From Bolinopsis microptera (taxonomy: Eukaryota > Ctenophora > Tentaculata > Lobata > Bolinopsidae), in the NCBI RefSeq assembly GCF_026151205.1, contig NC_087074.1, positions 11,441,226 to 11,505,225 on the forward strand: a stretch of 64,000 nucleotides of DNA, in the 5' to 3' direction. The translations under genes and the position numbers were made by a program. How positions within the stretch are numbered: the stretch's first letter is position 1; each line of letters begins with the position of its first letter. This document shows, one piece after another, positions 21,427-46,202 of the stretch. The notes under the pieces are model-generated. The model saw only the letters and a list, made by a program, of their open reading frames with translations, ran no database searches and had not been told where the DNA came from.

Positions 21427-21499
21427 GCCGAAATAGCTCAGTTGGGAGAGCGTTAGACTGAAGATCTAAATGTCCCTGGTTCGATCCCGGGTTTCGGCA
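21427..21499 (+). tRNA. tRNA-Phe (GAA anticodon)
   Basis: The 73 nt sequence folds as a standard tRNA: acceptor GCCGAAA paired with TTTCGGC, D arm GCTC/GAGC with AGTTGGGA loop, anticodon stem TTAGA/TCTAA with loop CTGAAGA (anticodon GAA), five-base variable loop, T arm CCTGG/CCGGG with loop TTCGATC, discriminator A. Internal A and B boxes (TAGCTCAGTTGG, GGTTCGATCC) are intact and a TTTTT pol III terminator follows at 21503-21507. There is no intron and no encoded CCA. It lies in VIRMA's largest intron, on the opposite strand, 48 bp from the acceptor of exon 21234-21378. Confidence 0.98.
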
Positions 21500-21509
21500 G
21501 TCTTTTTGT

Positions 21510-23202: not shown

Positions 23203-23514
23203 GAAAGACCTGACACAGAGTGCGATAGTTTACCTTTATCACAAGTTTAAAACAAGAATCATGCCTATAAGCTGGGAATCACCGTGGGAGAATACCACGG
23301 TTCTCGTTCGCCACAAACAGGGCGTTCTTCCGGAATAGTGGGATCATCATTTCCCCCGTCCGGTCGAATGCTAGGTGCTGCTTTCCCTCGTCATACAGCT
23401 TCATAGTTTCTTTGGGGGACAACTTTTAAGTAGTATTCTTTTGCCAGAGAAGCACCTTATAAGGCACGGATTAGAACGAGTTTCATTTCTACTAGTCATT
23501 CAGATTGTGATATT

Positions 23515-24440
23515 GAGTCAGGTTGTTGCACCTAATGTCCAGGTGGCAGGTTGTTGCACCGCAGCACCTAATATCCAGGTGGCAGGTTGTTGCACCTTAG
23601 CACCTAATATCCAGGTGGCAGGTTGTTGCACCTTAGCACCTAATATACAGGTGGCAGGTTGTTGCACCTCAGCACCTAATATCCAGTTGGCAGGTTGTTG
23701 CACCTTAGCACCTAATATCCAGTTGGCAGGTTGTTGCACCTTAGCACCTAATATCCAGTTGGCAGGTTGTTGCACCTTAGCACCTAATATCCAGGTGGCA
23801 GGTTGTTGCACATCAGCACCTAATATCCAGGTGGCAGGTTGTTGCACCTCAGCACCTAATATCCAGTTGGCAGGTTGTTGCACCTCAGCACCTAATATCC
23901 AGGTGGCAGGTTGTTGCACCTTAGCACCTAATATCCAGGTGGCAGGTTGTTGCACCTCAGCACCTAATATACAGGTGGCAGGTTGTTGCACCTCAGCACC
24001 TAATATCCAGTTGGCAGGTTGTTGCACCTTAGCACCTAATATCCAGTTGGCAGGTTGTTGCACCTTAGCACCTAATATCCAGTTGGCAGGTTGTTGCACC
24101 TTAGCACCTAATATCCAGGTGGCAGGTTGTTGCACATCAGCACCTAATATCCAGGTGGCAGGTTGTTGCACCTCAGCACCTAATATCCAGTTGGCAGGTT
24201 GTTGCACCTTAGCACCTACCATCCAGGTGGCAGGTTGTTGCACCTTAGCACCTAATATCCAGGTGGCAGGTTGTTGCACCTTAGCACTTAATATACAGGT
24301 GGCAGGTTGTTGCACCTTAGCACCTAATATCCAGTTGGCAGGTTGTTGAACCTCAGCACCTAATATCCAGGTGGCAGGTTGTTGCACCTTAGCACCTAAT
24401 ATACAGGTGGCAGGTAGTTGCACCTCGGCACCGAATTTGT
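23515..24440. repeat. Minisatellite, 36 bp unit, about 25 copies
   Basis: Unit of 36 bp (GCACCTAATATCCAGGTGGC then AGGTTGTTGCACCTTA) with a G/T polymorphism (GGTGGC or GTTGGC) arranged in a higher-order pattern: a block of about 10 units occurs twice. The unit length is divisible by three, so both strands stay open over 300 codons (APNIQVAGCCTL on plus, ILGAKVQQPATW on minus). There is no signal peptide, no similarity and equal openness on both strands, so I treat it as non-coding. Confidence 0.93.
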
Positions 24441-25555
24441 GTCCTAGCCGTACATGGTTATAGCTGCTTCCCTGAAAATCTTCTCTTACATATTTTTGTG
24501 TGAAAATCATTACTTTCTGCAATGACAATATCAATTTTCTAAGAACATTAACAACATATTTACCATACTATTTACCATACTAGTTAGTGTTATAATATGT
24601 AACATACTAGTTAGTGTTGACTAGAAGTCTGGCAAAGCTTCACATGTGAGTAGCACAAGTTTTTTTGTAATTCTGTGTACTTTTGTTCTCAAGTAGTTTC
24701 AAGTTGGATATTAAACTGTTTACTGCTGGATATATAGCATTAGCATTTATTAATTCATTCAGAAGATTAAAACTTGGTAAATGTTAATTGTTAAGTCGCA
24801 AGTGTGGGTCCTCAGTTAACTTTAGCTGATGAAAATATGACGACATGAGAAATGCAGCCACATTTCTTGTTAAAAAACTGTGAAAAATATTACTCTACAC
24901 GTACAACAGCTTGATGTATTCGCTTTTGATTATTGCCTGTTTTATTATAGTGACGGAGTTTATGAGTTTATGTTAATCCGGATTCCGGAGTTCACTTTCG
25001 ATGATCTACATATTATTATTGTAACTAATAATTTGAGGTTCACCTATGGGCTATGACGCAACACTGAAGATATCATGAACTGTAATTAATGCCTGAACAA
25101 TTTACAACAACTCGTTTTGTCTGATTGTATTGGGAATCATTATATTCTCAGCATGAACAGTAAACACGCTGTAATTACATCGCATCAGGAGACAGTTTAA
25201 ACCTTATCATTATATTGAATATAAACAAGATAAAACCACAAAACGAGTAAGCAGCTTAATATCTCCAGACTGTTCCATTGTGACTTTGATTGAGGAACAA
25301 TACTTGTATATCTTTGGCTTTGTTCCAACTGTACCGGAGTACATCAGCTTCAGTAAAGGGTAAATTACCCCGTATGTATCATGGCTGCATGGTTTGATAC
25401 TATTCATTGGTTATCTTGCTTTTGGTTACATCATATCTTTACCCGTTGATAACATCACGATTCCCGCCATCTTACAAGAAGTGCCTCATTTCTCATAGTT
25501 GGTGTCCCTCTACATGTCCCACCAGTTACCCTTGTAGTGAGATAAGTGCTCCCTG
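24441..25555. other. Intronic/intergenic DNA before the receptor cluster
   Basis: No supported exon. It should contain the promoter of the gene starting at 25556, but no TATA box or other element could be picked with confidence. Confidence 0.4.
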
Positions 25556-26341
25556 ATGATGACACTTGTAACACTTACACTGGTGTTGGGTCTACCAGTC
25601 CTGCTAGTCTCCCTCTGTAACAACGGAGAGTATGAACACACCAACTCCACCACACACACCACCACCTGTAGAACCTGCTCACCGGACAGTGCTACCTCAG
25701 AGTGTTCTAGATCTTTTTTACCCTTTTTACCGGTGGTCACAACTCCTAGTAACTCTGTTACAACGTTAAAAACAGAAGAGCACATTTTAAAAGATAACCC
25801 CATACCAGCAGAGAATATAACACAGAATCATGTTGTAATAGTGGAGCCAACAACAACAGCTGATATTAACGCAGTGGATCTGACAGCAGTGGAGCAAGAT
25901 GTACCTGAGCCTTTAACAGCTGAGCCAAATACAGTATTAAAGCCCTTAACGACTAAGCCAAATACAGTATTACAGCCCTTAACGACTAAGCCAAATACAT
26001 TATTGAAGCCCTTAACAGCTGAGCCAAATACAGTATTAAAGCCCTTAACAGCTGAGCCAAATACAGTATTACAGCCCTTAACGACTAAGCTCCCAACATC
26101 AAATGATACAACGAAGCAGGCCGAAGAAAAAATTGCCAAAAACCAACAAAACAAAACTACAGATCATGAGAATCCAGCGACGCAGCCAAAATCTACAGTT
26201 TGGATATGGTCTATTGCAATAACCATGTTATTACTAATAGTAGCGGGGATTGTTGGTTACACGGTCAGGAAAAGATATAGGGTGGGAGACAGCATTGAGT
26301 ATGTGACACTACTTGATGTCAAATCCGGTGAATACGTGTGA
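25556..26341 (+). CDS. Putative type I membrane receptor, one Cys-rich module (cluster gene 1)
   Basis: Family unrecognised. The 261-residue intronless frame has a signal peptide (MMTLVTLTLVLGLPVLLVSL), then a Cys module, CNNGEYEHT-CRTCSPDSATSEC (residues 21-50), that matches modules in the genes at 42206 and 44352 (C--G-YEYTDP---TCK-CPDG-IS). The stalk is Thr/Pro-rich and includes five 11-residue repeats of the type EPNTVLKPLTT (about 25915-26085). A transmembrane helix lies at about residues 213-236 (IAITMLLLIVAGIVGYTV), followed by a short basic tail with SIEYV and a terminal SGEYV. The two EYV motifs link it to the other cluster tails, and the C-terminal -EYV also fits a class III PDZ ligand pattern. 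It lies antisense to VIRMA in its intron 17. A surface receptor or adhesion role is inferred only. Confidence 0.72.
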   Translation: MMTLVTLTLVLGLPVLLVSLCNNGEYEHTNSTTHTTTCRTCSPDSATSECSRSFLPFLPVVTTPSNSVTTLKTEEHILKDNPIPAENITQNHVVIVEPTTTADINAVDLTAVEQDVPEPLTAEPNTVLKPLTTKPNTVLQPLTTKPNTLLKPLTAEPNTVLKPLTAEPNTVLQPLTTKLPTSNDTTKQAEEKIAKNQQNKTTDHENPATQPKSTVWIWSIAITMLLLIVAGIVGYTVRKRYRVGDSIEYVTLLDVKSGEYV

Positions 26342-26420
26342 ACACTTTAACTAAATATATGCAGTATGACGTCATACGTGTGAACAGTTTAACTAAATTT
26401 ATGCAGTATGACGTCATAAA
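26335..26420. repeat. Two-copy 42 bp direct repeat at the 3' end of cluster gene 1, with two perfect CRE sites
   Basis: The stop-codon region (ACGTGTGAACA) plus the following 30 bp is repeated once. Each copy contains the palindrome TGACGTCA (26367-26374 and 26409-26416), a perfect cAMP-response element. The second copy repeats the Tyr-Val-stop codons outside the frame. Whether the CRE palindromes act as regulatory sites is unknown. Confidence 0.7.
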
Positions 26421-26994
26421 AAGTTAAAGCCTTCATTTATCACGGAATCTGAATAACTGTACATTTTTTGTTTACCTAAAATCCGCGGGGGTTTACTATA
26501 CGTTTAGTGCAAGTTGACCTTCTTTTCTCATAATTTTACAACCAATAAAATGTGTAATGTTATTTTATCAAATGAATGACACTCGGAAATGACCAGTAAT
26601 ATTTTAAATGTCTGTTTTTCTGAAACAAAGGAGTTGGTATTTCTAGTCTTGATTGTTGGTTTGATTAATATTATTGATATCATATAAAAGCAGATTTAAA
26701 GTACAAATAACATCATGTTTAGCATTTAACTGAATAAAAATAATAAATCTGTCAAATTGACAGAGACCACGTTAACTGATATGCTGATTATAAAGTACAT
26801 TAATTATTCGTACCGTAACATGATACTTACATACTGCCTGTCTTGTACACATCTTAAAACAAAAGATTAACCAAACAATTAATTTAAAAGAAGACTAACC
26901 TATTAACACCCAAACTTGTAATTGTCTCTGTTTTCCAATTTTTAGTCTCACAAGAAACGTCAACTTTACAAAATATACTATCAAGACATTTTAA

Positions 26995-27250
26995 TTGTAC
27001 AGGGGTTTCAGGAGACAGATATAACATTATACAGGGGTTTAAGGAGACAGATATAACATTATACAGGGGTTTAAGGAGACAGATATAACATTATACAGGG
27101 GTTTAAGGAGACAGATATAACATTATACAGGGGTTTAAGGAGACAGATATAACATTATACAGGGGTTTAAGGAGACAGATATAACATTATACAGGGAGAC
27201 AGACATAACATTATACAGGGGTTTAAGGATACAGATATAACATTATACAG
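26995..27250. repeat. Minisatellite, 32 bp unit, about 8 copies
   Basis: Unit ACAGGGGTTTAAGGAGACAG followed by ATATAACATTAT; one copy is internally deleted. In VIRMA intron 17, non-coding. Confidence 0.93.
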
Positions 27251-29094
27251 CTATTATTTGAACAGTAACACAACATGTCCGGTATTATGACGCACTGGAT
27301 AGTTCAAGATATTAACAGCAAGATTACCCTTGCTAGGGCCTAGTATTGTTGTTTATCCATTCTTTGATACTTTTTATCCAGTTCTGTCGCTCTAATTGAA
27401 CTGCATGTAGTATCCAAACTGTGTATTTATGCTGTGTGTATCTAATCATCATCATTTATATTGCATCTAAAACTTAAAATTGAAGTTTTGCAGGCTCCAT
27501 AAATCATATCCTACATTCAAAGAAACCATGATTAACTTAGCGCTCAAATTCAGTATACTTAATTAAATTGAAGTATGTTAATTAAAAACTACCTTTGGAT
27601 GAAACGCATCGCATCATCATAAATTACTAAATTACTTGGTCCGCCCGGTAATTACAGATTACAAAGGGAGGATGCATATTAAAAAAGGAACCACGGAGCC
27701 CAACTCAATATTACAATACTGCAGCTGTCTGCAGCTTTGAGAGCTCCCTGAGGTTCCCTGGGTCTTGTGAATAATCATTAACCTGGTTAGTAAGCGGTGA
27801 TAATATATTGCTGTGGTCCTTTACCTCCCCCCCCCCCCCCCCACCACCTTCAGACTGCTTGACGATCTAAATGTTGAAAAGACAAGAAAAAAGGAGTTAT
27901 ATAGATGTAGCAGCTATTGTCAGATTGAAACCTGCCGTTTATTATTTAACAATCCAGAAGGTAGATGAGTTATGAGGGTCCGGGTGAGAGTCTTCTTATT
28001 CTTAGTGAGTTAGTGGCTGGCTGGAGGCATGAGCAGATATTTACGATATTGTGATTGGATGGATCGTAAAATCACGTGGTAAGGGTCTCGGCACAATTAG
28101 CTAGCACAGTTCCTGTCCTCATTTCTCATTACCTCAGTTCAGTTAAACCGCTCAATATTTCGGTTGTTGTAAAGTTAAGTAAGTTTAAAGACACGAAACC
28201 TCGATATAGGTTTCAAGAGAAGACAGCAGAGATCGTTAGAGAATGGCGAGTTCCTGCTTTCTTATCTTCATTGCTGTGGAGATAATCAGAACTACTGCTG
28301 CTAATGAAGGTATTCTTTAATGATATTTTAGTGGGCTACATTATTACAATTCTGAGAATTAACTATGGGCGACATTCTTAAATTCATGATAACATCAATC
28401 GTTGCTCAGTAGTCATGAGTTAAACATACAAATAACAGGTTGGTTACCAGTCAAACGTGAGGTGGAAATAGAGTGGGATCTTGAGAACTTCTTATGAAGT
28501 CAGATAACAAAAAGTGACCCTAGAGTTTAGACTTATAGATATTATAGTGATAATGCAGTGCAGAGGCACATATTAGGTGCGGTAAAAAAATCGAAATTAT
28601 GCGGTACCGCACCCGACTATAAAGGTAAAATGTGCGGTAAGGTGCGGTAAATTTTTACCAATTATGCGGCAAATGTGCGACGATTTTTCGAAATTTGTGC
28701 GGGAATTGTGCGGTTTTCTTTTGCATTTTCTGAAGGACTTTGGAAATTCTAAACGTGTAACCGCCGCTCTTATCAAAAATAGGTCTGTTTATGTGTTACT
28801 GAGGGTGTAGTTCTTTACTAAGACCATGATTGAACCTATATTGAGATTCAGTTGTCTGAGAACAGTGACTTGATCTGGTAGAGATCAGGAGACAGTTATT
28901 TGAAGACGCCTCTTGATAGAGTCGATCAGATCCGATGCCTGATCGCAAATATCAAATATGTGACACGCTTGTTGGCATTGATCGTCAGTACTTGTAAACC
29001 ATTTGATCCAAGATCCATTAAGCCCACTATAAAGCCAACGCTACAACGATAAAAAGGGCTGCAGGTATGATCGAAGTACGGTAACGACGAGGGT
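27251..29094. other. Intronic/intergenic DNA
   Basis: Holds a poly-C run (27827-27842), a degenerate GTGCGGTAA repeat patch (28575-28700) and a possible signal-peptide exon at 28243-28309 reported separately. No other coding sequence is supported. Confidence 0.45.
28243..28309 (+). CDS. Possible orphan first exon encoding a signal peptide
   Basis: ATG at 28243 opens MASSCFLIFIAVEIIRTTAA, then NE and a GTATTC splice-donor-like sequence at 28310. The peptide is a good secretory signal. No matching second exon was recognised downstream, and the neighbouring cluster genes are intronless, so this could be chance or the relic of an intron-bearing relative. Confidence 0.3.
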
Positions 29095-29365
29095 TCCATA
29101 ACGCCTGGGTCACGGTCCCGAAAGGGCCTGGGTCATGGTCCCGAAAGGGCCTGGTCACGTGGTAACCGGGTCACGTGCCTAGGCATGAGTTCCAAAGGGC
29201 CTGGGTCACGGTCCCGAAAGGGCCTGGGTCAGGGTCCCGAAAGGGCCTGGGTCACGTGGTAACTGGGTCACGTGGCCTAGGTATGAGTTCCAAAAGGGCC
29301 TGGTCACGGTCCCGAAAGGCCTGGTCAGGGTCCCGAAAGGGCCTGGGTCACGTGGTAAACCGTCA
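29095..29365. repeat. GC-rich repeat patch based on CGGTCCCGAAAGGGCCTGGG
   Basis: About ten degenerate copies of a 23-25 bp unit (CACGGTCCCGAAAGGGCCTG), interspersed with CACGTGGTAA segments arranged as two larger units (about 29100-29195 and 29196-29300). It is much more GC-rich than its surroundings. Open in one frame, but only because of the repeat. Confidence 0.85.
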
Positions 29366-31475
29366 TTCGGTGTTGTAAAGTTAGTAACGTTAGCCTATAA
29401 TGCAGTGAAAAAAAAACTTTGTATCTTATATCAACTAAATTTGCACAGTTCCGAAATAGTAACGGTGATTACAAAATATGTTCGCACTAAATAGTCTAGT
29501 TGTTTATAAAAAAAGACTTTTGAATTATTGATAATGATAAATTTATGAACTTGTGATATCTTAGAAGTTGAGTGGGAAATCGTACTTTTCTTTGCAAAGA
29601 TTTCCGATGCATAAAATTTCCTAATTTATATTTAAAACATAAAATTGATAATTTTGTTTTACCTAATTATTCAGGTGTTTCGCGGATCAATTGACACAGC
29701 ATTTTCGTGACCTAATATTTTAAGATGTCCAATGTTTTGTATCATGATTCTTGTAAGTTGTACTTTATTTAATATTCATTCTTCTGATGATCCCGGTTTT
29801 CGTTATATAGAAGTCAAAAATTTAGTAACAATCACCGATTTATCTTTTCTTTACTCTAAACATTCTTTGTTGCCATTTGTTCGAATTCTTGATTCATTAT
29901 TCTGCATACCGCTGACCCGCATACCGAAAGTTGGTAAAATAATGAAATCAAATATGCAAATCGTAGAGCTACTTAATAACATTAATCCACAAATTCTTCG
30001 CTACTCATATACATGTAAATTCAAATTCTACGCCCAAACGTTTGTCATTTTGCAACAGACGTTTTTAAACCCAGCTGAAATAATGTATTAAAATTATACC
30101 AAATTTTAAAACTTAATTTTATTTTTCAAGCGTAGTAAAATCGCGCAAAGATAATTGCTAACTGGAGCTGTACCTACAGATCTTGGGTGGAGTCGATGAT
30201 CTAATGTATTCTCAATAGACTTTGGTATCACACGTGACCCACACCCACCAATGAAAACTGAGGATACCCCAATAAAACATTAGGAGTGATACAGTGATGA
30301 GCGTCAACTAAAATTGTTTCTTTCATGCGCTAAATATCCATTGTCAGATTTGCACGTGGTAGAACAAGTACAAAAGATACCTTGATTAAAGTGTACGACC
30401 TGCAAAGCAGAGTTAATCTACTGTGATCCTTTTGTCGCCTGTATTTTACTCTTGTCGTAAGGATAGGTAGGAGTCGATAATTTTAATCGTAATAATCTTT
30501 GATTCATTAGTTCAATCCAGGTCATTACTAATTTCAAAAAAGGTTCTAAAAATCTTTCTTTTTATACTGTAAAGCTGTAAACAGTGAAGGTCTTTTGTAT
30601 CAATCTCCTTTGAGGGGTTCGTTTTTAAAACTTTTATAAGAATTAAGCTACTTATCACAGCCACATATTCGAATACTGTAAAATATCTATATTATACCGT
30701 GCTTCTTTAATCTTCATACCGGGTACCTCGATAAACCGGGCATTGTCCCCAAAACTTTTAGTTAATTAGCTTGTGTTGTGCAAGAAACCGGGCATTGTCC
30801 CCAAAACTTTTAGTTAATTAGCTTGTGTTGTGCAAGAAATGTAATTTATCGTAGCTCATAATACCACACTTGGTGGTGATCTGAGTATTATATCGAGCTG
30901 TATTCCACCAGAATACGTGTGCATATATATAATTATATTAATTTCCGTGGCTGTGGTTGCAATGCGCCTAGTCTACTGGAATGATTCTTCGGAATTTCGC
31001 TGGATTGTACAACTTTCGTCTTGGTAGATTCCAAACACAAGGAAATTTTTCCTTTGGTTGGTAATATACTCAATGATGGAAGTATAGTGAATTGGCTATG
31101 CCCCGCTTACTAGTTTAGCTCTTTCTAGTCCCCTGCTATACGGCATGTAAACAGGGATTGGCTAGTTAGAGGCGGTCCGTGTAGGCCTTACACTGTGCTT
31201 TCAGCAATACTCATATATTATATATTATATAAGGCCCTAGTAATATACAAAACGCCTGACAGGTTATTTCTCCCGGGAGGCCCACTATATAGAGGTTTAA
31301 CTGTATTTAAAATAAGTGAAAAGTTAGGAAAGCATCTACGACATGATGCAGATACGATAATAAGTTCACGTTATGATGCTTGAAGTTTGAATTATGGTAT
31401 TGCCCATGATAAGATTATACAAACTAACTAACCTAAACACAATCAGATGGATGACTCAGTGCAATAGTCGGGGGA
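29366..31475. other. Intronic/intergenic DNA upstream of the mucin-like gene
   Basis: Contains a 52 bp tandem duplication (about 30733-30836: AAACCGGGCATTGTCCCCAA onward, twice). Near 31284-31303 it also has a string, GAGGTTTAACTGTA, that resembles a pogo/Tigger terminal repeat without a clear partner. The 119-codon frame at 29732-30091 has no similarity and AT-rich codon use, so I do not call it a gene. Confidence 0.45.
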
Positions 31476-34400
31476 ATGAAGACCTTGTATGTCTTCACGA
31501 AATTTCTAAGTCTCGTAATTTGGATCGAGGTTTCTCAATGTTTGCGTTCAACAGCAACTCCAAATACCCTACTTCAAGAGGCAAACGCAACAACATCTCC
31601 AAAGAACACACCAGAAATTTCAACAGCAACTCCAAGGATTCCACTTGAAGTGAACACGTCGATATCGACAGAAACTTCAACGGAGTCATCGTCGAAAAAG
31701 TCATCCTCCGATCATGTAACCACATTTTCCACTAGTACTTCATTCACTTCGGTCTCCCTGAAAACATCTGCAAATACTACAAAGATGACAAGAGACGTGA
31801 CCGAAGTCAGTGTGGTATCTTCGAACAGGACCTCTCTACCGGGCGTACAGTCGACAACATTCATAGGATCGACAGTGCAAGCCAATGGTAAATCAAAAAC
31901 AACAGCATATCTGAGGGTCCAGCCAGAGATTGTAACAACAACCCCAACAGCAACTCCAAGGATCCCACTCGAAGAGAAAACTACAGTATCTGAAAGGGTC
32001 CAGCCAGAGATTGTAACAACAACCCCAACAGCAACTCCAAGGATCCCACTCAAAGAGAAAACTACAGTATCTGAAAGGGTTCAGCCAGAGATTGTAACAA
32101 CAACCCCAACAGCAACTCCAAGGATCCCACTCGAAGAGAAAACTACAGTATCTGAAAGGGTCCAGCCAGTGATTGTAACAACAACCCCAACAGCAACTCC
32201 AAGGATCCCTCTCGAAGAGAAAACTACAGTATCTGAAAGGGTCCAGCCAGAGATTTTAACAACAACCCCAACAGAAACTCCAAGGATCCCACTCGAAGAG
32301 AAAACTACAGTATCTGAAAGGGTCCAGCCAGAGATAGTAATAGCAACTCCAACAGAAACTCCAAGGATCCCACTCGAAGAGAAAACTACAGTATCTGAAA
32401 GGGTCCAGTCAGAGATTATAACAACAACCCCAACATCTCAAAAATCCCCATCAGAAGTTAAGACATCAAAAGCGCTGATATCGACAGAAAGTTCAACGGA
32501 GTCATCGTCGAAAAAGTCATCCGATCATGTAACCACATTTTCCACTAGTACGTCATTCACTTCGGTCTCCCAGAAAACTTCTGCAAAAACCACAACTTCA
32601 AATTCCAAATTACCAATAAGATCTACTAAAAACTCTCCATCAACTTCATCAAAAAGACCCAGGACAACACCAAAGACGGTTGAAGATGTAACTGAAGGGA
32701 GCGTGCTATCAACGAACAAGACCTATCTACCAACTGTCCAACCAACAACGTTCATAGGATCGGCTGTGCAGGCCGATGAAAAATCAAGCACTCACCCGAA
32801 ATCAACAAAACATGCAACGTACAAAGGTTCATCGGATATAAAAGTTTCAGTTTCTGGAATGTCTATAGAGGAACCAAAAACATCATTCTTATCGATCGAG
32901 AAATCGAAAGAGAGCACCTCATCCGGTAGTGATCACAGTACCAAATTTTCCACTAGTACTTCATTTTCTCATGCCACTACATCAAATTCCAGAGTACCAA
33001 TAGGATCTACTAAAAACTCTCCATCAACTTCATCAAAAAGACCCACGACACCACCAAAGACGGTTGAAGATGTAACTGAAGCGAGCGTGCTATCAACGAA
33101 CAAGACCTATCTACCAACTGTGCAACCAACAACGTTCATAGGATGGGCTGTGCAAGCCGATAAAAAATCAAGCACACATGGGAAATTGCACAAAACATCA
33201 ACTCACAAAAGCATCAAGGAGAAAGAGTTTACAAATAAATCGGAAACGTCTACAGAGGAGACTAAAACATCTGAAAAATCGAGCGAAACATCTGAAACAG
33301 TTACTGAGAATAGATACACAACATCTGTGCAAACTGAAAGCCCAACCTTTGTCAATGATATTGACAACATCAAAGAGCAGCCCATGACGAAAGTTGTCTC
33401 CACAAACACATCCTTGACTCTGGAGACCAAGACAAAGCTTCCTACAACAAACGCACCCACGACAAAAGAATCCTCTACAAAGACTCCCACAAAAAAGGCG
33501 CCCACAACTGCGACCAAAACAAAGGTGCCAACAGATAAGCCGACAACAGAGAAGCCGACAACAAAGAAGCCGACAACAAAGAAATCCACAACAGAGAAAT
33601 CCAAAACAGAGAAGCCCACAACAGAGAAGCCCACGACAGAGAAGCCTACAACAGAGAAGATCACAATAGAGAAGACCAAACCAGAGAAGCCGACAACAAA
33701 AAAGCCGACAACAAAGAAATCCACAACAGAGATGTCCACAACAGAGAAGCCGACAACAAAGAAATCCACAACAGAGAAATCCAAAACAGAGAAGCCCACA
33801 ACAGAGAAGCCCACGACAGCGAAGCCGACAACAGAGAAGATCACAATAGAGAAGACCAAACCAGAGAAGCCGACTACAGAAAAGCCGACAACAAAGAAAT
33901 CTACAACAGAGAAATCCAAAACAGAGATGTCCACAACAGAGAAGCCGACAACAAAGAAATCCACAACAGAGAAATCCAAAACAGAGAAGCCCACAACAGA
34001 GAAGCGCAAGCCCACGTCAGTGAAGCCTACAACAGAGAAGATCACAATAGAGAAGACCAAACCAGAGAAGCCGACAACAGAAAAGCCGACAACAAAGAAA
34101 TCCACAACAGAGAAATCCAAAACAGAGATGTCCACATCAGAGAAGCCGACAACAAAGAAATCCACAACAGAGAAATCCAAAACAGAGAAGCCCACAACAG
34201 AGAAGCCGCCAACAAAGAAATCCACAACAGAGAAATCCAAAACAGAGAAGCCCACAACAGAGAAGCGCAAGCCCACGTCAGAGAAGACTACAACAGAGAA
34301 GATCACAATAGAGAAGACCAAACCAGAGAAGCCGACAACAGAAAAGCCGACAACAAAGAAATCCACAACAGAGAAATCCAAAACAGAGAAGCCCACAACA

Positions 34401-36878: not shown

Positions 36879-37340
36879 ATATCATAATATTAGATATCAA
36901 TCTCTCATCTGATAATTGTCATAATTATTCATAATTATACTCGACCAATTTTTAGATATTGAACAAAACCTGGTTTAAGGAAATAATAATTGTATATAAT
37001 TTATTCCATTTAAAGTTTGCTGACTTAACAATAATTGCACTACATAGAAATTTTAGGAGCATGTGTAATTTGTTCAAGAGTATAATAATTGAGTAATTGA
37101 TATTAATTGTAAATTACGGGAATATGTTGTTAGATATGCAAATAATATGAACATATCGTTAAATATGCGATTTGTAAATGGTAGTCGTGCCTCATTGACA
37201 ATATTACTATAGATGACAATATTATTGTGATGTTACAAGACTTATTGAATGAGAACTGGCAATGAAACTGTTTTAAAGAATGCCTGTATTTACATGACGA
37301 GCCATAACGACTGAAAGCTTTGCAAGTAAGAAAGATCCTT
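36879..37340. other. 3' flank of the mucin-like gene
   Basis: AT-rich sequence, presumably 3' UTR and spacer. No exon recognised. Confidence 0.4.
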
Positions 37341-37438
37341 CGGCTTCCTGTAATTGGCTGGTTGCACTTGTGTAACATTGTGGCTGTTGGAATACACCGA
37401 AGTAAAATAAGTGTCTAGATTAAAAAAAAAAAAAAAAA
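37341..37438 (+). mobile_element. 3' tail of a SINE with poly-A
   Basis: CGGCTTCCTGTAATTGGCTG at 37341, continuing to GAAGTAAAATAAGTG and a run of 16-17 A. It matches the end of the longer copy at 52567-52648 with a few substitutions. The 5' part is missing, so this is a 5'-truncated copy. Confidence 0.85.
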
Positions 37439-37947
37439 GTACAAGTAGATCAAGTTTCAAGTTTTGTGAATGTTTTGCGACCTGTGTCTGACCAGTCTAC
37501 GATATGATTTTATATTTTTCTGAGACAATAATTTAATTTTAGCTTAGTAGTGATAGAATTGGGATGTGAATTTTTATTTAAGTTGTTAAATTTAATTCTA
37601 ATTCTAATTATTATTCAATCGTTTGAATGTCTGACATAAAATATCAATCACTCGATAATGTTTGTTAGTTTAATATTCTGTGAGCTTTTAATGATACCGG
37701 ACGAAATTACAATTTTAAGTCACTCAACACCTAACATAATATCTTTGGTATTTGGTAAAACTGTAAGGTAAAACCACTTTGAATTGCATTTACACGGATT
37801 GTCTCTAAATGTACTTTTTGAGTAGTTTGCCGTTGCAAATTATGATAAAACCTCTCTCATGATCAGCACTACAATCTCCGGCAGGGTCAGCTTTTAGTCT
37901 ACTTGAAATCGTGCATATTGTTATCAATAATTGTAGTCAGTCCCGTT

Positions 37948-38529
37948 ATGAGACTCTCATCAATTCTCATCATATTTCTGGTGTTCTGTCAGGCTGAAAT
38001 GCTTATTAGACGTGGAGAACAAACCGTGAATCCAAAACATCCAACAAAGTCGCCCGCAAAAGAGGATCATAATACACCACCTCAGAAAATGAAGACTGAA
38101 GTGTTTGAACAACCAGACAGCTCGACCACAAAGCACGTGATAGAGCACGTGACAGAACACGTGATAGAACACGTGACAGAGAAAAATAGAAGAAACAGAG
38201 AAGAAGATAAGCTCTCTAATAAGAAGGGGTCCCCTGAGTTAAGCCTGCAGGAGAAAGTGCTGATATCAGTTCTCCTACTCCTCCTTTTAGTTGTTACAAG
38301 TCTATCCATCACATGGTCCTGGAACAAAGCTCAAACCTCACTCACTAATCCTGAGAGAGGACCCGAGGATTCAGATAATATCAATAATCTGTCTGCTTTC
38401 TCGACATTATCTAACTCTGTATTTGAGGTGGTAGAGCTTCAGGAACTACATCTTGAGGAGAGTGGAGAGAGATCTGTGAGAGAAGGTGGGGGAACATCAG
38501 CTTCACTATTCAACCCCGCCTCAAATTAG
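37948..38529 (+). CDS. Small putative type I membrane protein (cluster gene 3)
   Basis: Unrecognised. The frame opens at 37903, but the Met at 37948 gives the better signal peptide (MRLSSILIIFLVFCQA), so I chose it. The ectodomain is short and polar, without Cys, and includes four tandem copies of HVIE/HVTE (coded by repeated CACGTG-containing units, 38132-38180). A transmembrane helix (VLISVLLLLLLVVTSLSI) precedes a tail of about 70 residues that is acidic and Ser-rich (NNLSAFSTLSNSVFEVVELQ) with no Tyr, unlike the other cluster members. Grouping with the cluster rests on position, orientation, lack of introns and topology. Confidence 0.6.
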   Translation: MRLSSILIIFLVFCQAEMLIRRGEQTVNPKHPTKSPAKEDHNTPPQKMKTEVFEQPDSSTTKHVIEHVTEHVIEHVTEKNRRNREEDKLSNKKGSPELSLQEKVLISVLLLLLLVVTSLSITWSWNKAQTSLTNPERGPEDSDNINNLSAFSTLSNSVFEVVELQELHLEESGERSVREGGGTSASLFNPASN

Positions 38530-38843
38530 AAGCTGGCTACTGGCGGTGAATCACAGTACTACCAAAACAGTTTGTCCGAATTTTATTTTAACTTTCAACA
38601 CAATATATAATTTACATGTGATTACTCTAATTAACAACCAATAAACAGTTCTATTTTTAACTCCTTACAGAGGTAAGACTGATGAGAAACACTGGGCCAA
38701 CTCTGTTTGAACCTTGTATTTGAGTACCACTTAATTTGACCCTGTCTAACTGAAGAGTCTGTAAATACTCCGTCACCTCTCCACAGTACACCCAAACTAA
38801 CCATACACTTGCTCAGCGTCTAGTTTACAGTTTTAACTTTGCA

Positions 38844-39512
38844 ATGCGTCCCTTAGCAGTAATACTCGTAGTGAGACTGTTATTATGTTCAGTGTGGTTT
38901 GTTACAGTCAGTGAATGTTTCCCACGTGGTTCAACGGCTCAACAGAAAGTTCAACAGGAGGTGTTGTCTGGAGAGGAGCAAGGAGGACCTGAGATGGAGA
39001 CTGTAGTCACGGAGACTGTAGTCACGGACACTGTAGTCACGGAGACTTCAACACCTGACAACGGAGTACAAGTCTTAACCACGGACAATACATCAGATCA
39101 TACAATATATCCAGGGACAGTGTCGGCTACTACAACATCTTTTTCGTTAAGGACTGATACTCCTCCAAGTAAACCAGTGATAACCGGTTCATCATCAACA
39201 ACAAATAGTTCCCCTTCCGAAGGGACAGTAGCCATCAGCCTGCTGCCATATACGTCAAGAGAATCAACATCTAAGGAGCTACCGGAAATTTCCACTGACG
39301 AAAAGACCTCCGTTTTGCCAAAATTAGAGCCTGCCTCAACAGAGCCAGTTGGATCCAAAGAGAGAACCCTAAGATTAACAGTGCCCACAACAGTACTGAT
39401 AGCATCTGCCTCCGCAGTTCTGCTAGGTGTGTTCGGCTACGCCAACTTCCGCTACTGGAGAAAGAGACGTCAGGAGATGAACTTTAACATCTCGTACGTG
39501 TCCCGGCCTTGA
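38844..39512 (+). CDS. Small Ser/Thr-rich type I membrane protein (cluster gene 4)
   Basis: Unrecognised, 222 residues, intronless. Signal peptide MRPLAVILVVRLLLCSVWFV ending in TVSEC, like WIEVSQC in the mucin-like gene. The ectodomain is Ser/Thr/Pro-rich with a four-fold TVVTET repeat (38998-39045) and no Cys pairs. Transmembrane helix at about residues 178-200 (VLIASASAVLLGVFGYANF). The short tail YWRKRRQEMNFNISYVSRP has a single SYV tyrosine motif. Probably a minimal member of the same family, with the Cys module lost or never gained. The function is unknown. Confidence 0.62.
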   Translation: MRPLAVILVVRLLLCSVWFVTVSECFPRGSTAQQKVQQEVLSGEEQGGPEMETVVTETVVTDTVVTETSTPDNGVQVLTTDNTSDHTIYPGTVSATTTSFSLRTDTPPSKPVITGSSSTTNSSPSEGTVAISLLPYTSRESTSKELPEISTDEKTSVLPKLEPASTEPVGSKERTLRLTVPTTVLIASASAVLLGVFGYANFRYWRKRRQEMNFNISYVSRP

Positions 39513-40506
39513 GGACATAAGGACGATTCTTTTAGAACTTAGAAATTAGATATCTAGTACTCACTACTCTGTATTAAACTTAAAGACAATTTGTAGTGAA
39601 ACATTGGGGAGGGTTGAATTTAGGATATTGTCTTTAATGATTGTGTTTTAAATAATCCAATACTGTGTTCGGCTATTGTGATTGCGAACAGTTAAACCTC
39701 TATTCATCGTGCTCAAAGATTTACCGGACCTAACCCACCTCTATTTATGTATTTATAAGTTATAGCCATCAATATTTCCGTCCCCGAGAAGCACGGTAAA
39801 TATAGATTTGTATGTTCAATTCACATTTTGATTTAAATTTGTATTGAATCGTGTGATTATCATTATAATATTCTTTCATTAATTGTAAGAAATTTGTCCC
39901 ATCAATATAACGATATAATGGTTTGGACGATTAAGATGGTCTGGTCAGTGGTCAATGTCCGCGTCAAAAAAGCGCAAAGTTCCTGCTTACTGTAAAAGTA
40001 TGTCTGATCCTCAAATTTTCACCCATCCGCTATTATACTAGATAGTAATATTTGTATCTTTTTATGCATAATATTAATTCTTCTTCTTTAACCGTGTACA
40101 GTTCGTACTAATTGTTACCCCCTGACTCAACCAGCAATTCACCAATTTTAAGTTTGAAATTTTTACCTCATCGGTTAACTGGTTAAGGGATGTAATGGGG
40201 TTTAAATTGTAAGGACTTCATTACGTAATGACGTATTGGGAGGGGGTAAGCTGACTGTACTAGAACGCAGTTTTCAAGTGCAGTCCCGTCCGAGTTACAG
40301 CTACAAACAGACGTACCCTGTCTAGATTCATCCACAAACCCTTTATTAGTAGTTCACAGTGCGGTGGTATCATCCACACAATTAAAGTACCCCAAATTGG
40401 TGCGAATCCTTTAGTTGAGTACCCCAAAGGTAGTCGTAGCTCGTTCCCGTCTATGTTTCAACCCAAGTTGGAACATTTCTCTTTTACTCGTTAAACTTGT
40501 TGAGCA
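39513..40506. other. Spacer between cluster genes 4 and 5
   Basis: No exon or recognisable element seen. AT-rich. Confidence 0.4.
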
Positions 40507-41190
40507 ATGCGGCTATTACCACTTATCTCGGGATTGCTACGCCTTGCAGTCTGGATTAAAGTACAGAGATGTGAGAATGTCCCGGACCAGGCTGCAAAAA
40601 CCACGTCTCCCTCTCCTTCTTCTTCAGACATTTTTACTAGTCCTAACGGTGTCCCAACCAAACTGCAAACTAGTGGAGGATACAACACACACCCTACATT
40701 ACAGAACAGCAGCAGTCCTCTCAGGAACATTACAGAGACCAGATCGGAGGAGTCAGCTTCAGAATCATCTCCCTCCAACACGAAGGAGTGGGGAACTGAA
40801 ACGCCTTCCTCCAAAGAGCCTATGCTGAACTGCAAGTTTGAATTATGCTTGGTACTGATGATCCTAGTCCTAGTAGTCGGAACTGTGATTACTGCTCTAG
40901 TGTACTGTGGACGGAGGAACAGACACCACACCATCCAACACACCGTGTATACATCTCCTGGTTCTGAACTTAACACTGGTTTGAAGAGTGGATCTTGTGC
41001 TCTGACACTGATGGACGATACTAACGTGTACGCTGATGCTGTAGATTTAGAAACTGAGGGCATTGCAAGGAGGGTAGCAAGTACGGACAACTCTGTTAGA
41101 CCAGAGAAACCTGCTAAACCTGCCAAACCTGTTAGATTAAACCATAACTATGTCAACATAAGCATACAGACTTGTTACACTAAACCATAA
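40507..41190 (+). CDS. Small type I membrane protein with YVNI tail motif (cluster gene 5)
   Basis: Unrecognised, 227 residues, intronless. Signal peptide MRLLPLISGLLRLAVWIKVQ then RC, resembling that of the mucin-like gene. Ser/Thr/Pro-rich ectodomain (residues 25-108). Transmembrane helix at about 111-134 (CLVLMILVLVVGTVITALVY). The tail of about 93 residues has tyrosines in HTVYTSPG, TNVYADAVDLE and NHNYVNISIQ. YVNI is the classical pYxN type recognised by Grb2-like SH2 domains; actual phosphorylation here is inference. The tail also has PAKPAKPV repeats. The coding end lies in the first copy of a 43 bp tandem repeat. Confidence 0.65.
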   Translation: MRLLPLISGLLRLAVWIKVQRCENVPDQAAKTTSPSPSSSDIFTSPNGVPTKLQTSGGYNTHPTLQNSSSPLRNITETRSEESASESSPSNTKEWGTETPSSKEPMLNCKFELCLVLMILVLVVGTVITALVYCGRRNRHHTIQHTVYTSPGSELNTGLKSGSCALTLMDDTNVYADAVDLETEGIARRVASTDNSVRPEKPAKPAKPVRLNHNYVNISIQTCYTKP

Positions 41191-41250
41191 CTATGTCAAC
41201 ATAAGCATCCAAACTTGTTACACTAAACCATAACTATGTCAACATTACCA
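41143..41250. repeat. 43 bp tandem repeat, about 2.5 copies, spanning the stop of cluster gene 5
   Basis: Each unit carries AACCATAACTATGTCAACAT, which codes HNYVNI in the first copy. The unit is not a multiple of three, so the second copy is read in another frame and supplies the stop (TAA at 41188-41190). Extra tyrosine-motif copies thus lie outside the frame. Confidence 0.85.
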
Positions 41251-42205
41251 GCTTACACAAGTGTTGAGAATTAGTGAAGGGTATAATATCTGGACTACAG
41301 CGAGATTGGACTGTTATTAATTATTATTTCAATACGAGGTTAGTATGATATGAATTGAGATGTTTATGAAAGTCAGTCGAAAAACCTGTTATTTCTTTAT
41401 ATATTATCAATTTCGATCTCTACCCATGAAACGGCTCATTTTTATTTGTTCTTGAATTATTAATGATTACTGTTGTATGTTTATAAATTAATTTACATAA
41501 ATTATCATAGTTAAGTGAAATGCTCGGTAAGTTCCATTGTCATGATTAAGATCAAAAAGTTGTCAAAAGTCAAAACAAATCGTGATTTACTATGAAAAAA
41601 CTGTTCGTATCATCTCCTAATTTGTTTCAGTCTAGCGCTTTGTTGGCAATGGACCCAACCTATTACAAATCATGATCTAGATATAAGCTGTAATTTACAT
41701 CATACACAGTGTATGTATTATATTATACTGATGATACAATTCTCTAGAAAGAGTAAGATGATAATAAGATAATAGAAGTAAAATTCCGGCGGCTACGATT
41801 AGTATTAGTCATGTTACGTAATTATTCTAAGAATTCTAACCTCGTGGTTTCATCCAAGTCACAAAGGTATAAAGTATCATAATCAGAACATGCAATGGAA
41901 CGGAATTATATCTTGAGAAGACAATGAAATTGTTTCTAGGCCGGACTCCATAACAAGACCCTTACACTCGTCATTGTGAGACTCCATGGTCTAACAGTAA
42001 TAAAGTGACACACCACTCTGCACTGTAACACAATACCACAACAATGAAACAGATTGATGAGTAGTACCTTCGTATCCGCTCAACACAAATCATCGGTATT
42101 TCAGTTTGACCAACCTTTCCCGGTACTGCACAAATCATTGGTATTTAAATTTACATAAAAAGCGTAGACATGTAATATTAGGTTGAGCAGCCGGTTATTT
42201 GTTGG
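41251..42205. other. Spacer between cluster genes 5 and 6
   Basis: No exon recognised. It should hold the promoter of the gene at 42206; an AT-rich TTTACATAAAAAG string near 42149 is the only TATA-like candidate. Confidence 0.35.
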
Positions 42206-43114
42206 ATGATGCAGGCAGTTTTGTTAATATCGTTGTTTGTTACAGCCTCTATACAATCTCAAGACTGTGAACCTGGAGAGCACGAATACACCGACCCAGC
42301 TAACAACTCCACGTGCAAGGTCTGCCCTGATGGTTTTATCTCTGCGCACGACAAAAAGGACATTTGCCAGTGGGTTGTTAAGAAGAAGCGGACTTGTGAG
42401 GCCGGGGAATACAGAAGTTACAAATCCCACACGTGTAGCCCATGTCCAGAGGGGACGACTAGTAAAGCTGGAGCTGTCAAGATGCAGGAATGTAGGTCCG
42501 GTAATGTAACCGCTCCTCCGGGCCAACTAACTGACAGGGTAACAGAGAGAGCTCCTATAAACACGACCACGGCACACGAGGTGACTAGGCCACAGGTTCC
42601 AGTAACATTGCGCAGACCAGTACACAGACCAGTAACCAGGAAGCCAGTTGTACCCGAACAGTGGAGGCCTGGAATAGGACTGGTAGTGGCCCTGACTGTG
42701 GTTCTGGTGGCAGGAACTTCCTCTGCAGCTTTCATCTGCTGGCAGAGGGCATCTGAGAAGGCATCTGAGAACTTAATAGCGGCCAGACCGAGACCGAAAC
42801 AGTTTAGAGTAAGACTTTCAACCATTAATGCTTCCAACTGTTCTTCTGTTTTCAGTAGTGACGGTGATTTCCAACGTGGTAACGGAAGACCGGAGAGTTA
42901 TATTACTGCAGAGGAGCTCCAACGTGAGAGGACTGAAGCAGAGTATTTTGATAATGTGGGATCTTTTCAGGAGTCAGACTACGTCATCGCAGACTCAACC
43001 TTAGCAGGGTCCCAACCTGAACCACAACCCGGATATGTTAATAATTCCAGTAAAGTTGGACTCCATAAAGCTGAGTCCACAGCGACGCTGGACGATGCGT
43101 CTGAATACGTGTAG
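42206..43114 (+). CDS. Putative receptor with two ephrin-receptor-like Cys modules and tyrosine tail (cluster gene 6)
   Basis: 302 residues, intronless. Signal peptide to about residue 18. Two Cys modules: residues 21-55 (CEPGEHEYTDP, TCKVCPDGFIS, C) and 64-96 (CEAGEYRSY, CSPCPEGTTSKAGAVKMQEC). The pattern C-x-G-x-Y/F ... C-x-x-C-P-x-G-x-x-S ... C is that of ephrin-receptor-like GCC2/GCC3 or TNFR-like repeats. Thr/Pro-rich stalk, transmembrane helix at about 156-179, then a tail of about 120 residues with tyrosines in ESYITAEE, AEYFDNV, SDYVIADS, PGYVNNSS and the terminal SEYV. PGYVNN fits a Grb2-type pYxN site. It is the closest relative of the gene at 44352. Ligand and pathway are unknown. 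Coding-like remnants of a longer tail follow the stop. Confidence 0.8.
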   Translation: MMQAVLLISLFVTASIQSQDCEPGEHEYTDPANNSTCKVCPDGFISAHDKKDICQWVVKKKRTCEAGEYRSYKSHTCSPCPEGTTSKAGAVKMQECRSGNVTAPPGQLTDRVTERAPINTTTAHEVTRPQVPVTLRRPVHRPVTRKPVVPEQWRPGIGLVVALTVVLVAGTSSAAFICWQRASEKASENLIAARPRPKQFRVRLSTINASNCSSVFSSDGDFQRGNGRPESYITAEELQRERTEAEYFDNVGSFQESDYVIADSTLAGSQPEPQPGYVNNSSKVGLHKAESTATLDDASEYV

Positions 43115-43440
43115 GCGACCCTTATTTCAGCTGGATTTATGGTGAATCTCTCATATCCGGAGTATGCTGAAACAGCTGTACAAAACAACAGTACACACGA
43201 GGACGGAGGAGATGCCGGAGGGAAATGAATACGTGGGCCCAACATCAGACAAAAGAGATGAAGACGGGTAACTTGGTTCTGGAGACGAGGACGATGTTTA
43301 CTCAGAGGGATCAGAGGGTTTATAAGAGAAAAGTGAGGAAGAGAGAGGAACGTCAGAATCTGAACAATGCGAAGGTTAGAGGGACCTGGATAATCAGTAC
43401 GTGAACATGTATACCATTAATTATTAGCTGAGCAAAATAG
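43115..43440 (+). pseudogene. Relict tail segments downstream of cluster gene 6
   Basis: Behind the stop at 43112-43114, separate frames still read tail-like peptides: LSYPEYAETAVQNNS, EMPEGNEYVGPTSDKRDEDG (compare MPEGSEYVEP in the gene at 44352) and RDLDNQYVNMYTINY followed by a stop. They are broken by frameshifts and stops. This suggests that the ancestral protein had a longer tyrosine-rich tail, or that alternative 3' sequence is used. Confidence 0.55.
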
Positions 43441-44351
43441 CGACTAATTATATTAAATAATGTGCTGTTCAAATAATGATTAAAGTTGTACCATGTTGGA
43501 AGACTGTGACCCGAACTATTTTATTTTTAATACGATTACTGATTTTTCACAGTAGCTCATAAAGTCATAAGACTTGATGAAACAGGTCTGAGAAACTGCT
43601 ATCTTATAATGCTGAGTGCTATAGCGACAACATTGTTATAGCAATAACATTGCTATAACAATCAGATGTTGCCTGCGCGGCGGGTAGCAACACTGTATTT
43701 GATGAGGGTAGGAGCTAGTTTAAATTTTACAAGAGATAATCTTCAATTGCAATAAAATATTGATCAGAATGTTTAAATTTCAATTTTGTAGCGAATACTC
43801 GAATATTACAATTTAAACACGAAATAACAAAAGCAATTTGAATCGTTGATCCGTGGATTCGTGATCTTTCATGTGCATTCTTTTTTGCTCACTTTTTTTT
43901 GCTCACTATTTAACAGTAAAGTTTAAAAGTAATTAAAAAAATATAAATACGAATTATTTCGTTGTTTGTGGCATAACTATTAATCAAAGGTTTTTTAACT
44001 ACATCAATAATTATTAATGGTATTGCATTAGTTTACGGCAGTTAATATTCTCTGTTTTTTACTACTTGTTCAAAGAGTGTTGGTGTCAACATAAATTTAA
44101 CCACTGTACCATTCGAATTAAAATAGAGAACTGGTAAAATAAGTCACCACGATAGATATCATGAATTGTAATTCTGTAACATTAAACCATTGTTTTTTAA
44201 TATGACATCAGCTGACATGGCCAATATTTTCTTAGAGTAGCTACAGGAGTAAAGGTTGCACCATAAATCATCAGTAACGCTGCAATTATACAAATGCCAC
44301 ACCAGTACACTTCTACACTACTCTCAAACGTTTTGATATTCTGATATTTTA
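43441..44351. other. Spacer between cluster genes 6 and 7
   Basis: AT-rich, no exon recognised. Confidence 0.4.
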
Positions 44352-45944
44352 ATGCAATACTTGTCAGCTCTTCTAGTTTTCCTGCATCTAGCAGTCCCGA
44401 TAGAGTCCAGCTGCAAGCATGGAAAGTACGAGTATACGGACCCAGTGACCAACCAAATAACCTGCAAGATTTGTCCAGACGGCCAAATTTCAGGACACTC
44501 TAAGAAGCACACCTGCCAACTTATCCATGATAGATCAAGAAACTGTACGGCAGGATCATATGGCTTCAAAACCATGGGCTGTATCTCTTGTCCTGCTGGT
44601 AGAATGAGCCCTGCTGGAGCTGTTAAAGTTCAGGAATGCAAGAAAGCTGTTACAAACCAGACTGTAACGAATGAGGCTGCCACTCAGCTGCTGACCACAC
44701 CCGAGCGACAGGAAACATCATCAATAAGACCATCAGTTCATCCAACCATACCAAAGATTCCTACTACTTCTCCACCCGAGGGGACAACAGAGCCTTTAAA
44801 TCACATGACAACACCAAATATACCAACTAAACCTTTACCAAAGGAGCTTACATCTAACACAACAACCAAAGTAACCCAACCAAAGATACCGGCAACAAAG
44901 AAGCCAGTGTCAGCTGCGCCTCCAACAAAAGCACCCACTAAGAAAGGGCCCCCCGTAGGCCTAATAGTGAGCCTGCTGTTAGTGTTTCTAGTAGTTATGG
45001 GGTCAGCCGGCTACATCGTCTGGAGGGTCACTTCACATCGCAGACAGGGCGGAGGTCTTCCACTGATCGAGCCTAATGGGTTCACAAACCCCACTCTTGT
45101 AGACGACGAAACCCCAGTTTCTCAGGGATTTGGACTTCGCAGATATAAAAGACAGGACAGTAACTACGTTTGTACGGATGAGCTGAAGCTGGAGAGTGAA
45201 TATGTGGAGGCGTCACAGGTCAGGATATCTAGCCAATACGAGGTGCTGCAGCTGAAGGATGACGGAAATCAAGGGAATGCTTCCGGATCGAAATGCAGTG
45301 CTGTTGAGAATACTCCAGAGTCAGAGTATGTCCTTTCTGACCTAAAGAACACTCCAACAAAGCAATCTGAGTATGTAAATACCTATTCAGTTGGAGCTAA
45401 GCCAAAAGCTCAACCGGAATCCGAATACGTTGTTGCAAGCCCATTCCATGCAGGATCACAGCCAACAGAAAATAACCAAGAATCTGAATATGACGTCCCC
45501 AGAAATCTAAATAATATTACAACTCCAAGAGAGCACCCTCAGTACATGAACACAGTTGGATCCAAGCCTACAAAGTTAACTCAACCAGAATCTGAATACG
45601 TCGATGCCAATCCATTCCACACAGGACCACAACCTACAAAACCGGAGTACGTTAACACAGGTCTTGGTCTCACCCAACCAACTAACACGGATATGAAGGA
45701 AGAGTCCGAGTATGCTTACGCTAGTCAGGGTCAACTCAGATTCCTACGGAACCGTCCAGAACCCGCAAAAGCTTCAACAAGCAGGGAGCAGGGGAGCTGG
45801 GGTCAGGGGGCCATGCCTGAGGAGCAGGGGAGCTGGGGTCAGGGGGCCATGCCTGAGGGGAGCGAGTATGTGGAACCCACATTCCAGCAATCTATATACG
45901 AGAATGAGGAGGGAATTTACTCTCAGTGTCGGAATGACAGCTAG
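44352..45944 (+). CDS. Putative receptor with two Cys modules and long multi-tyrosine docking tail (cluster gene 7)
   Basis: 530 residues, intronless. Signal peptide to about residue 20; Cys modules 21-55 (CKHGKYEYTDP, TCKICPDGQIS, C) and 65-96 (CTAGSYGFK, CISCPAGRMSPAGAVKVQEC), as in the neighbour at 42206. Thr/Pro-rich stalk 100-200, transmembrane helix about 201-225. The tail of about 300 residues has at least 13 tyrosines in a repeated context: SNYVCTDE, ESEYVEAS, SSQYEVLQ, ESEYVLSD, QSEYVNTY, ESEYVVAS, ESEYDVPR, PQYMNTVG, ESEYVDAN, PEYVNTGL, ESEYAYAS, GSEYVEPT, SIYENEEGIYSQ. YVNT and YMNT fit Grb2 or PI3K-type SH2 sites, YDVP and YVEP the Crk type; this comes from known SH2 preferences, and use here is inferred. 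There is no kinase domain, so an outside tyrosine kinase would be needed. An 11-residue duplicate (EEQGSWGQGAMP) lies near the end. Confidence 0.82.
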   Translation: MQYLSALLVFLHLAVPIESSCKHGKYEYTDPVTNQITCKICPDGQISGHSKKHTCQLIHDRSRNCTAGSYGFKTMGCISCPAGRMSPAGAVKVQECKKAVTNQTVTNEAATQLLTTPERQETSSIRPSVHPTIPKIPTTSPPEGTTEPLNHMTTPNIPTKPLPKELTSNTTTKVTQPKIPATKKPVSAAPPTKAPTKKGPPVGLIVSLLLVFLVVMGSAGYIVWRVTSHRRQGGGLPLIEPNGFTNPTLVDDETPVSQGFGLRRYKRQDSNYVCTDELKLESEYVEASQVRISSQYEVLQLKDDGNQGNASGSKCSAVENTPESEYVLSDLKNTPTKQSEYVNTYSVGAKPKAQPESEYVVASPFHAGSQPTENNQESEYDVPRNLNNITTPREHPQYMNTVGSKPTKLTQPESEYVDANPFHTGPQPTKPEYVNTGLGLTQPTNTDMKEESEYAYASQGQLRFLRNRPEPAKASTSREQGSWGQGAMPEEQGSWGQGAMPEGSEYVEPTFQQSIYENEEGIYSQCRNDS

Positions 45945-46012
45945 GGTGAGGGACACAGTCTAGTGTGAGGGACAATGACGTTATGATAGTGATATCTCTT
46001 ATTATCGACGCC

Positions 46013-46177
46013 TCGACGGGGTCAAAAGGAAAGGTCCGTGATTTTGATAATCAGTACTTTCATCTCATGGATCCGGACGCTCTCATCATATTATTGAAAA
46101 GAACAAATTTAACATTAAAGGCTGACAAGAGTTATCTAGTCCCCAGTCCCCCTTCACACTCCGGATATACAACTTAA
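46013..46177 (+). pseudogene. Relict tail-like segment downstream of cluster gene 7
   Basis: After the stop at 45942-45944 another frame reads KGKVRDFDNQYFHLMDPD and continues to SGYTT. RDFDNQYFHLM corresponds to RDLDNQYVNMY behind the gene at 42206, at a similar distance. Both genes therefore carry the same post-stop homologous piece. No good donor/acceptor pair joining it to the main frame was found. Confidence 0.45.
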
Positions 46178-46202
46178 AACTTACTGAAAGTTCTAAACTG
46201 AC

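Follow-up and report, generated by a model that had tools for sequence, protein, structure and literature searches.

Seven putative single-exon membrane-protein genes antisense within one VIRMA intron of the ctenophore Bolinopsis microptera

Seven uninterrupted plus-strand open reading frames (g1-g7) lie antisense inside a single intron of VIRMA, a minus-strand gene, in a 64-kb stretch of the genome of the lobate ctenophore Bolinopsis microptera (C3:11441226-11505225, here called the window, to which positions without a contig prefix refer; the assembly searched comprises 264.65 Mb in 232 contigs). We consider it fairly likely that each frame is a single-exon gene encoding a single-pass membrane protein, that the seven fall into two or more old groups alongside orphans, and that g6 and g7 encode docking receptors that are phosphorylated on tyrosine. 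The host intron and the frames, with signal peptides (SP) and transmembrane (TM) segments as predicted, are as follows.

VIRMA host intron, 20263..46202, minus strand: 25,940 bp; the flanking exons stop at 46203 and start again at 20262, in phase 0 on either side, with the ends predicted from splice-site reading.
g1, 25556..26341, plus strand: 261 aa; SP, half a Cys module, Thr/Pro-rich stalk with 33-bp repeats, TM, tail IEYVTLLDVKSGEYV followed by the stop codon.
g2, 31476..36878, plus strand: 1800 aa; membrane-mucin-like, TM near the C-terminus, 20-aa tail without Tyr.
g3, 37948..38529, plus strand: 193 aa; SP, short ectodomain, TM, 69-aa tail without Tyr; orphan.
g4, 38844..39512, plus strand: 222 aa; SP, Ser/Thr-rich stalk, TM, 21-aa tail.
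g5, 40507..41190, plus strand: 227 aa; g2-like SP, short stalk, TM, 93-aa tail with HNYVNI.
g6, 42206..43114, plus strand: 302 aa; SP and two Cys modules followed by stalk, TM and a tail that carries ESDYV, PGYVN and a C-terminal SEYV before the stop codon.
Second Cys module of g6 (residues 64-96), 42395..42493, plus strand: matched by the hidden Markov model (HMM) of a module dispersed over the genome (E 1.2e-8).
g7, 44352..45944, plus strand: 530 aa; SP, two Cys modules, stalk, TM (residues 201-224), 306-aa tail with 17 Tyr.
Second Cys module of g7 (residues 65-96), 44544..44639, plus strand: matched by the same HMM (E 4.8e-10).
Cytoplasmic tail of g7, 45024..45941, plus strand: repeated SEYVxAS, YVNT, YMNT and SEYDVP; predicted to be disordered (low pLDDT).

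The seven frames are present at 25556-45944, as the initial annotation had reported, and at 193-1800 aa none of them is expected by chance, since 100 first-order Markov simulations with the same amount of sequence and dinucleotide make-up as the non-coding DNA of the intron gave a longest plus-strand ATG frame of 141 aa, and frames of ≥190 aa numbered 0.0 on average. All are stop-to-stop frames with an in-frame stop codon 3-99 nt upstream of the start ATG, which fixes the start provided that no further exon is joined to it by splicing upstream. The proposed layout of signal peptide, one TM helix and cytoplasmic tail is borne out by an N-terminal hydrophobic segment and a single later TM segment in each of the seven, with the N-terminal segments of g2, g5, g6 and g7 being short or weak by hydropathy and signal-peptide-like by eye. 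Uninterrupted frames of 900 aa are also found in many of the genome's genes for ionotropic glutamate receptors (L031-L042), and the single-exon structure is therefore not peculiar to the cluster. The ligand-binding domain of one such receptor had its best PDB relatives in ML032222a, which we take to be from Mnemiopsis leidyi, and then in chain 4zdm, presumably of Pleurobrachia type, with fly and vertebrate chains far behind; another query from this set (L031) matched vertebrate AMPA/kainate receptors.

The identity of the host, a multi-exonic VIRMA gene on the opposite strand, was confirmed by matches to the human virilizer homologue on both sides of the intron, with exons at approximately 46-61 kb matching 7yg4/7vf2 colinearly (E 2e-6 and 1e-5) and exons at 18.5 and 18.3 kb aligning to 7vf2 residues 1636-1667 (E 4e-8). 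The consensus donor CAG|gtcagt at 46203/46202 and the in-phase acceptor ...atccag|GGTGG at 20263/20262 define one host intron, and no VIRMA-like exons were seen between its two ends. The predicted exon 3′ of the intron (20149..20262, minus strand) is an open frame from the phase-0 acceptor to a donor CAG|gtaaca; it had no direct PDB match, and the exon peptides from 18.8-20.3 kb, searched alone, gave no VIRMA match. A search of the genome with the VIR_N profile (PF15912) was uninformative, as neither it nor the controls found a match.

Judged from their sequences, g6 and g7 are an old pair of true paralogues, to which g1 is related in eroded form. The alignment of g6 with g7 scored 282 against 41 ± 6 for shuffles and extends over the signal peptide, both Cys modules, the TM segment and the tail, whereas what g1 has in common with g7 (score 134, shuffles 46 ± 8) is the signal peptide, one half of the first module and the terminal -EYV. 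The Cys regions of g6 and g7 are 49% identical, and the proportion of synonymous differences (pS 0.78) is near saturation while that of nonsynonymous differences (pN 0.34) is not, which marks the pair as old, protein-coding and constrained. Self-comparison of the intron DNA detected no DNA-level similarity between cluster genes and thus no recent duplication. The Cys module attributed to three genes is exact in g6 and g7, but g1 holds only its first half, and the description of the cluster as fast-diverging is contradicted by its best-supported members. No full-length relative of g1 was found elsewhere in the genome, where other matches fall on its low-complexity stalk.

The tail of g7 contains seven [DE]Y[VIL] motifs, against a mean of 0.30 in shuffled tails, and this number was reached in none of 2000 shuffles; the motif is also enriched in the tails of g6 (2 versus 0.11 expected) and g1 (2 versus 0.17). 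Tyr-Val tail motifs had been counted in five genes, and although the literal count is right, only those of g1, g6 and g7 carry statistical weight. A scan for the ITIM/ITAM pattern (S/I/V/L)xYxx(I/V/L), the type of site to which SHP and Syk bind through SH2 domains, gave one site in g1, IEYVTL; no enrichment of Yxx[LIVM] was seen in g5, g6 or g7. YVNT/YMNT and YDVP suit the known preferences of the SH2 domains of Grb2 and Crk/Nck, respectively. The combination of enriched acidic-Tyr-aliphatic motifs, a tail predicted to be disordered in g7 and motifs fitting SH2 domains favours a docking-receptor role for g7 and g6, and we infer that g7, and probably g6, recruit SH2 proteins. The Cys modules and the presumably glycosylated stalk would bind an extracellular ligand, clustering of the receptor would lead to phosphorylation of the tail tyrosines that have acidic flanks, by a kinase of Src or Syk type, and the phosphotyrosines of this disordered tail might then dock SH2 adaptors, of Grb2 type at YxN and of Crk/Nck type at YDVP. 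By functional analogy, the predicted disordered tail of g7, with its repeated acidic-flanked tyrosines, YxN and YDVP, may be compared to the multi-tyrosine docking proteins p130Cas, Gab and LAT, to which it has no sequence homology.

Several observations weigh against this interpretation. A codon-usage score trained on the glutamate receptors of the same genome barely separated coding from non-coding sequence and is too weak to decide, with the true frame not being the best of six for g1, g4 and g5. Pfam searches with g1-g7 found no family above cut-off other than low-complexity matches in g2, and an AlphaFold model of g7, made from three sequences, reached a pLDDT of 39.9, with an ectodomain of low confidence for which no fold is claimed. 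The enrichment of YxN in g7 is nominal only (4 versus 1.1, p 0.018), and YxN is not enriched in g5 or g6. The gene models rest on genomic sequence, and expression of g1-g7 as genes is our reading of it.

An alternative that we think unlikely is that the frames mainly encode membrane mucins, of mucus, the epithelial glycocalyx or the colloblast surface, with Tyr-Val tails for trafficking or scaffold binding instead of signalling, in which the terminal -EYV would act as a PDZ type III-like end. Ser, Thr and Pro make up a fraction of 0.37-0.48 of the ectodomains of g1, g2, g4, g5 and g7, the tails of g2, g3 and g4 are short or Tyr-poor, and g2, an 1800-aa protein of TTEKP-type repeats (15-bp unit, 33529-36645), has what would be expected of a membrane mucin: a long Ser/Thr/Pro tandem-repeat ectodomain, a TM segment and a short tail. 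In the reading that we favour, too, g2, g5 and perhaps g4 are mucin-like membrane proteins. The paired Cys modules of g6 and g7 are however conserved under constraint, and their long tails with strong acidic-Tyr-Val enrichment would be unusual for a pure mucin. The shared signal-peptide ending reported for three genes is strong between g2 and g5 (LSLVIWIEVSQC and LRLAVWIKVQRC, score 47 versus 19 ± 4 for shuffles) but only weak for g4, and it is confined to the signal-peptide region. What had been taken for one seven-member family comes down to a real subfamily of g6, g7 and the eroded g1, sharing Cys module and tail, while g2 and g5 have only that stretch in common and genome searches with g3, g4 and g5 found no relatives elsewhere. 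A 43-bp tandem repeat (41124-41245) partly duplicates the C-terminal end of g5 directly past its stop codon.

That some of the frames, namely g1, g3, g4 and g5, are spurious or decaying relics is a reading to which we give roughly one chance in five. The lack of relatives of g3, g4 and g5, the weak codon signal and the half module of g1 would all fit relics, but the frame lengths go far past chance and each frame has the N-terminal hydrophobic segment and the TM segment in the correct order.

The second Cys module of g6 and g7 links them to a larger, dispersed set of genes. A search with g7 found the same Cys module within long open frames on C1, C2, C3, C12 and C13, and a search with one 922-aa frame of this kind (L026) identified about two dozen places on ten contigs (chromosomes). 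The architecture of this single-exon family is an N-terminal beta domain, an Ig domain, an Ig-like domain, 1-23 Cys modules, a TM segment and a Yxx[LIV] tail; the modules, an Ig domain above Pfam cut-offs, the TM segment and the tail were seen at several of the places. The members catalogued (L046-L075) lie at the following sites.

C1: 25.28M, 25.56M and 25.57M.
C2: 14.26M, 14.50M and 19.61M.
C10: 16.18M.
C12: 6.08M.
C13: 9.73M, 11.07M and 12.24M.

Some copies are intact and some about 90% identical, others are interrupted by stops or have the frame split (C1:25.56-25.57 Mb, C2:14.50 Mb and C10:16.18 Mb are examples), so the family looks to evolve by birth and death; near paralogues have dN/dS ratios of 0.27-0.57. 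The model of one member reached a pLDDT of 78.5, and a fold search with it matched Ig proteins; for its N-terminal domain, that search gave a single row, a galectin-3 fusion (Z 12.4, rmsd 2.6, 127 aligned), from which no fold is claimed. The HMM that matched the second modules of g6 and g7 was built from 39 modules of this family (31 aa, C-x2-GxYG...CxxCPxGxxS...AVKxQEC), and it matched neither g1-g5 nor shuffled sequences. The ectodomains of g6 and g7 (133 and 176 aa) comprise modules and stalk only, with no Ig match in Pfam, and as they have neither the beta nor the Ig domains, the two are module relatives and not full members of the family. They resemble the dispersed receptors in the single exon, the 31-aa module, the TM segment and the tyrosine tail, and differ in having only two modules and acidic-Tyr-Val tails where the others have an N-terminal beta domain, a pair of Ig-type domains and tails of the Yxx[LIV] kind. 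The family was also thought to be local, which is true of g6, g7 and g1 as a cluster but not of the second Cys module, which belongs to the genome-wide family.

We would put forward as a speculation, and an improbable one, that g6 and g7 are the short outlying members of a receptor system of single-exon Ig/Cys-module genes, specific to ctenophores, shaped by duplication and loss and signalling through phosphotyrosine tails, which constitutes an independent recognition system. If so, recognition would have evolved independently in a possible sister lineage of all other animals, and the part of the system that lies antisense in the VIRMA intron could be restrained by transcription of the host. 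That the cluster is itself a rapidly evolving locus of polymorphic receptors for self-recognition or immunity, in the manner of the allorecognition receptors of Hydractinia (Alr) and Botryllus with their high allelic polymorphism and graft-type function, is improbable, since in spite of the clustering of single-pass receptors with tyrosine tails and the recent and broken copies and dN/dS values of their dispersed relatives, g6 and g7 are old and constrained, the absence of DNA-level similarity among cluster genes speaks against recent local duplication or conversion, and Mnemiopsis grafts reportedly fuse and are not rejected; neither fast divergence nor a self-recognition role of the cluster finds support.

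Among known systems, the cysteine spacing of g6 and g7 (C-x-G-x-Y ... C-x2-C-P-x-G-x2-S ... C) is like that of Ephrin_rec_like and TNFR-type modules (PF07699 and PF00020), but the module has its own end, AVKxQEC, and the Eph ligand-binding, FN3 and kinase domains are absent. Ephrin_rec_like scored 19.4 bits with g6 (E 9e-4) and 9.7 bits with g7, both under the curated cut-off of 23.1 bits, and neither an ephrin-binding nor a tyrosine kinase Pfam match was present in g1-g7, which led us to reject Eph receptors. Membership of the TNF receptor superfamily was likewise rejected (TNFR_c6 with g6 16.4 bits, cut-off 29.4; no g7 match listed). The parts of the ctenophore immune-domain surveys available to us report hundreds of genes with Ig-set domains and do not describe the architecture of the dispersed family, and no matching family was found in the open-licence literature on ctenophore receptors of this kind. 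The g6/g7 type thus appears to be a lineage-specific form of single-pass Cys-module receptor with tyrosine tails, and the dispersed family is apparently undescribed. Both the dispersed receptors, with their Ig domains, private Cys module and tyrosine tails, and the nested cluster provide concrete candidates to be examined for roles in immunity, adhesion or mucus biology.

Nested genes are common in ctenophores, as in Hormiphora californensis 2357 nested intronic genes were described in 1654 hosts, often several per host, and spliced-leader trans-splicing is common (PMC8527503). The location of g1-g7 inside a host intron follows this pattern and is in itself not new, but seven single-exon membrane-protein genes in one intron and on one strand are not described in the sections of that account that we consulted. 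The antisense nesting offers a clean case for asking if a housekeeping gene of the m6A writer, when transcribed, interferes with receptor genes in its intron. Spliced-leader-like sites ending in AATTTGAG occur in the genome, as in ctenophores; the Hormiphora spliced leader has three sites with 3 mismatches in the genome and is absent from the window.

A search for COX1 (PF00115) found no mitochondrial gene in the assembly. Within the VIRMA gene, a tRNA-Phe (GAA) was predicted at 21427-21499 (plus strand), and a 36-bp repeat array at 23518-24567 is open on both strands (349 aa on the minus and 324 aa on the plus strand). On the VIRMA strand (minus), the preceding VIRMA intron holds two long nested frames at 48269-51804, which contain DNA_pol_A_exo1-like repeats (E 4e-8) together with pieces resembling zinc ribbons. 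By eye, frames at 53446-54966 and 1-1332 (both minus strand) resemble the reverse transcriptase/endonuclease of non-LTR retrotransposons, a 294-aa frame at 4495-5379 (plus strand, no Pfam match) is LINE ORF1-like, and short frames at 5500-7700 (minus strand) resemble NADPH-oxidase exons.

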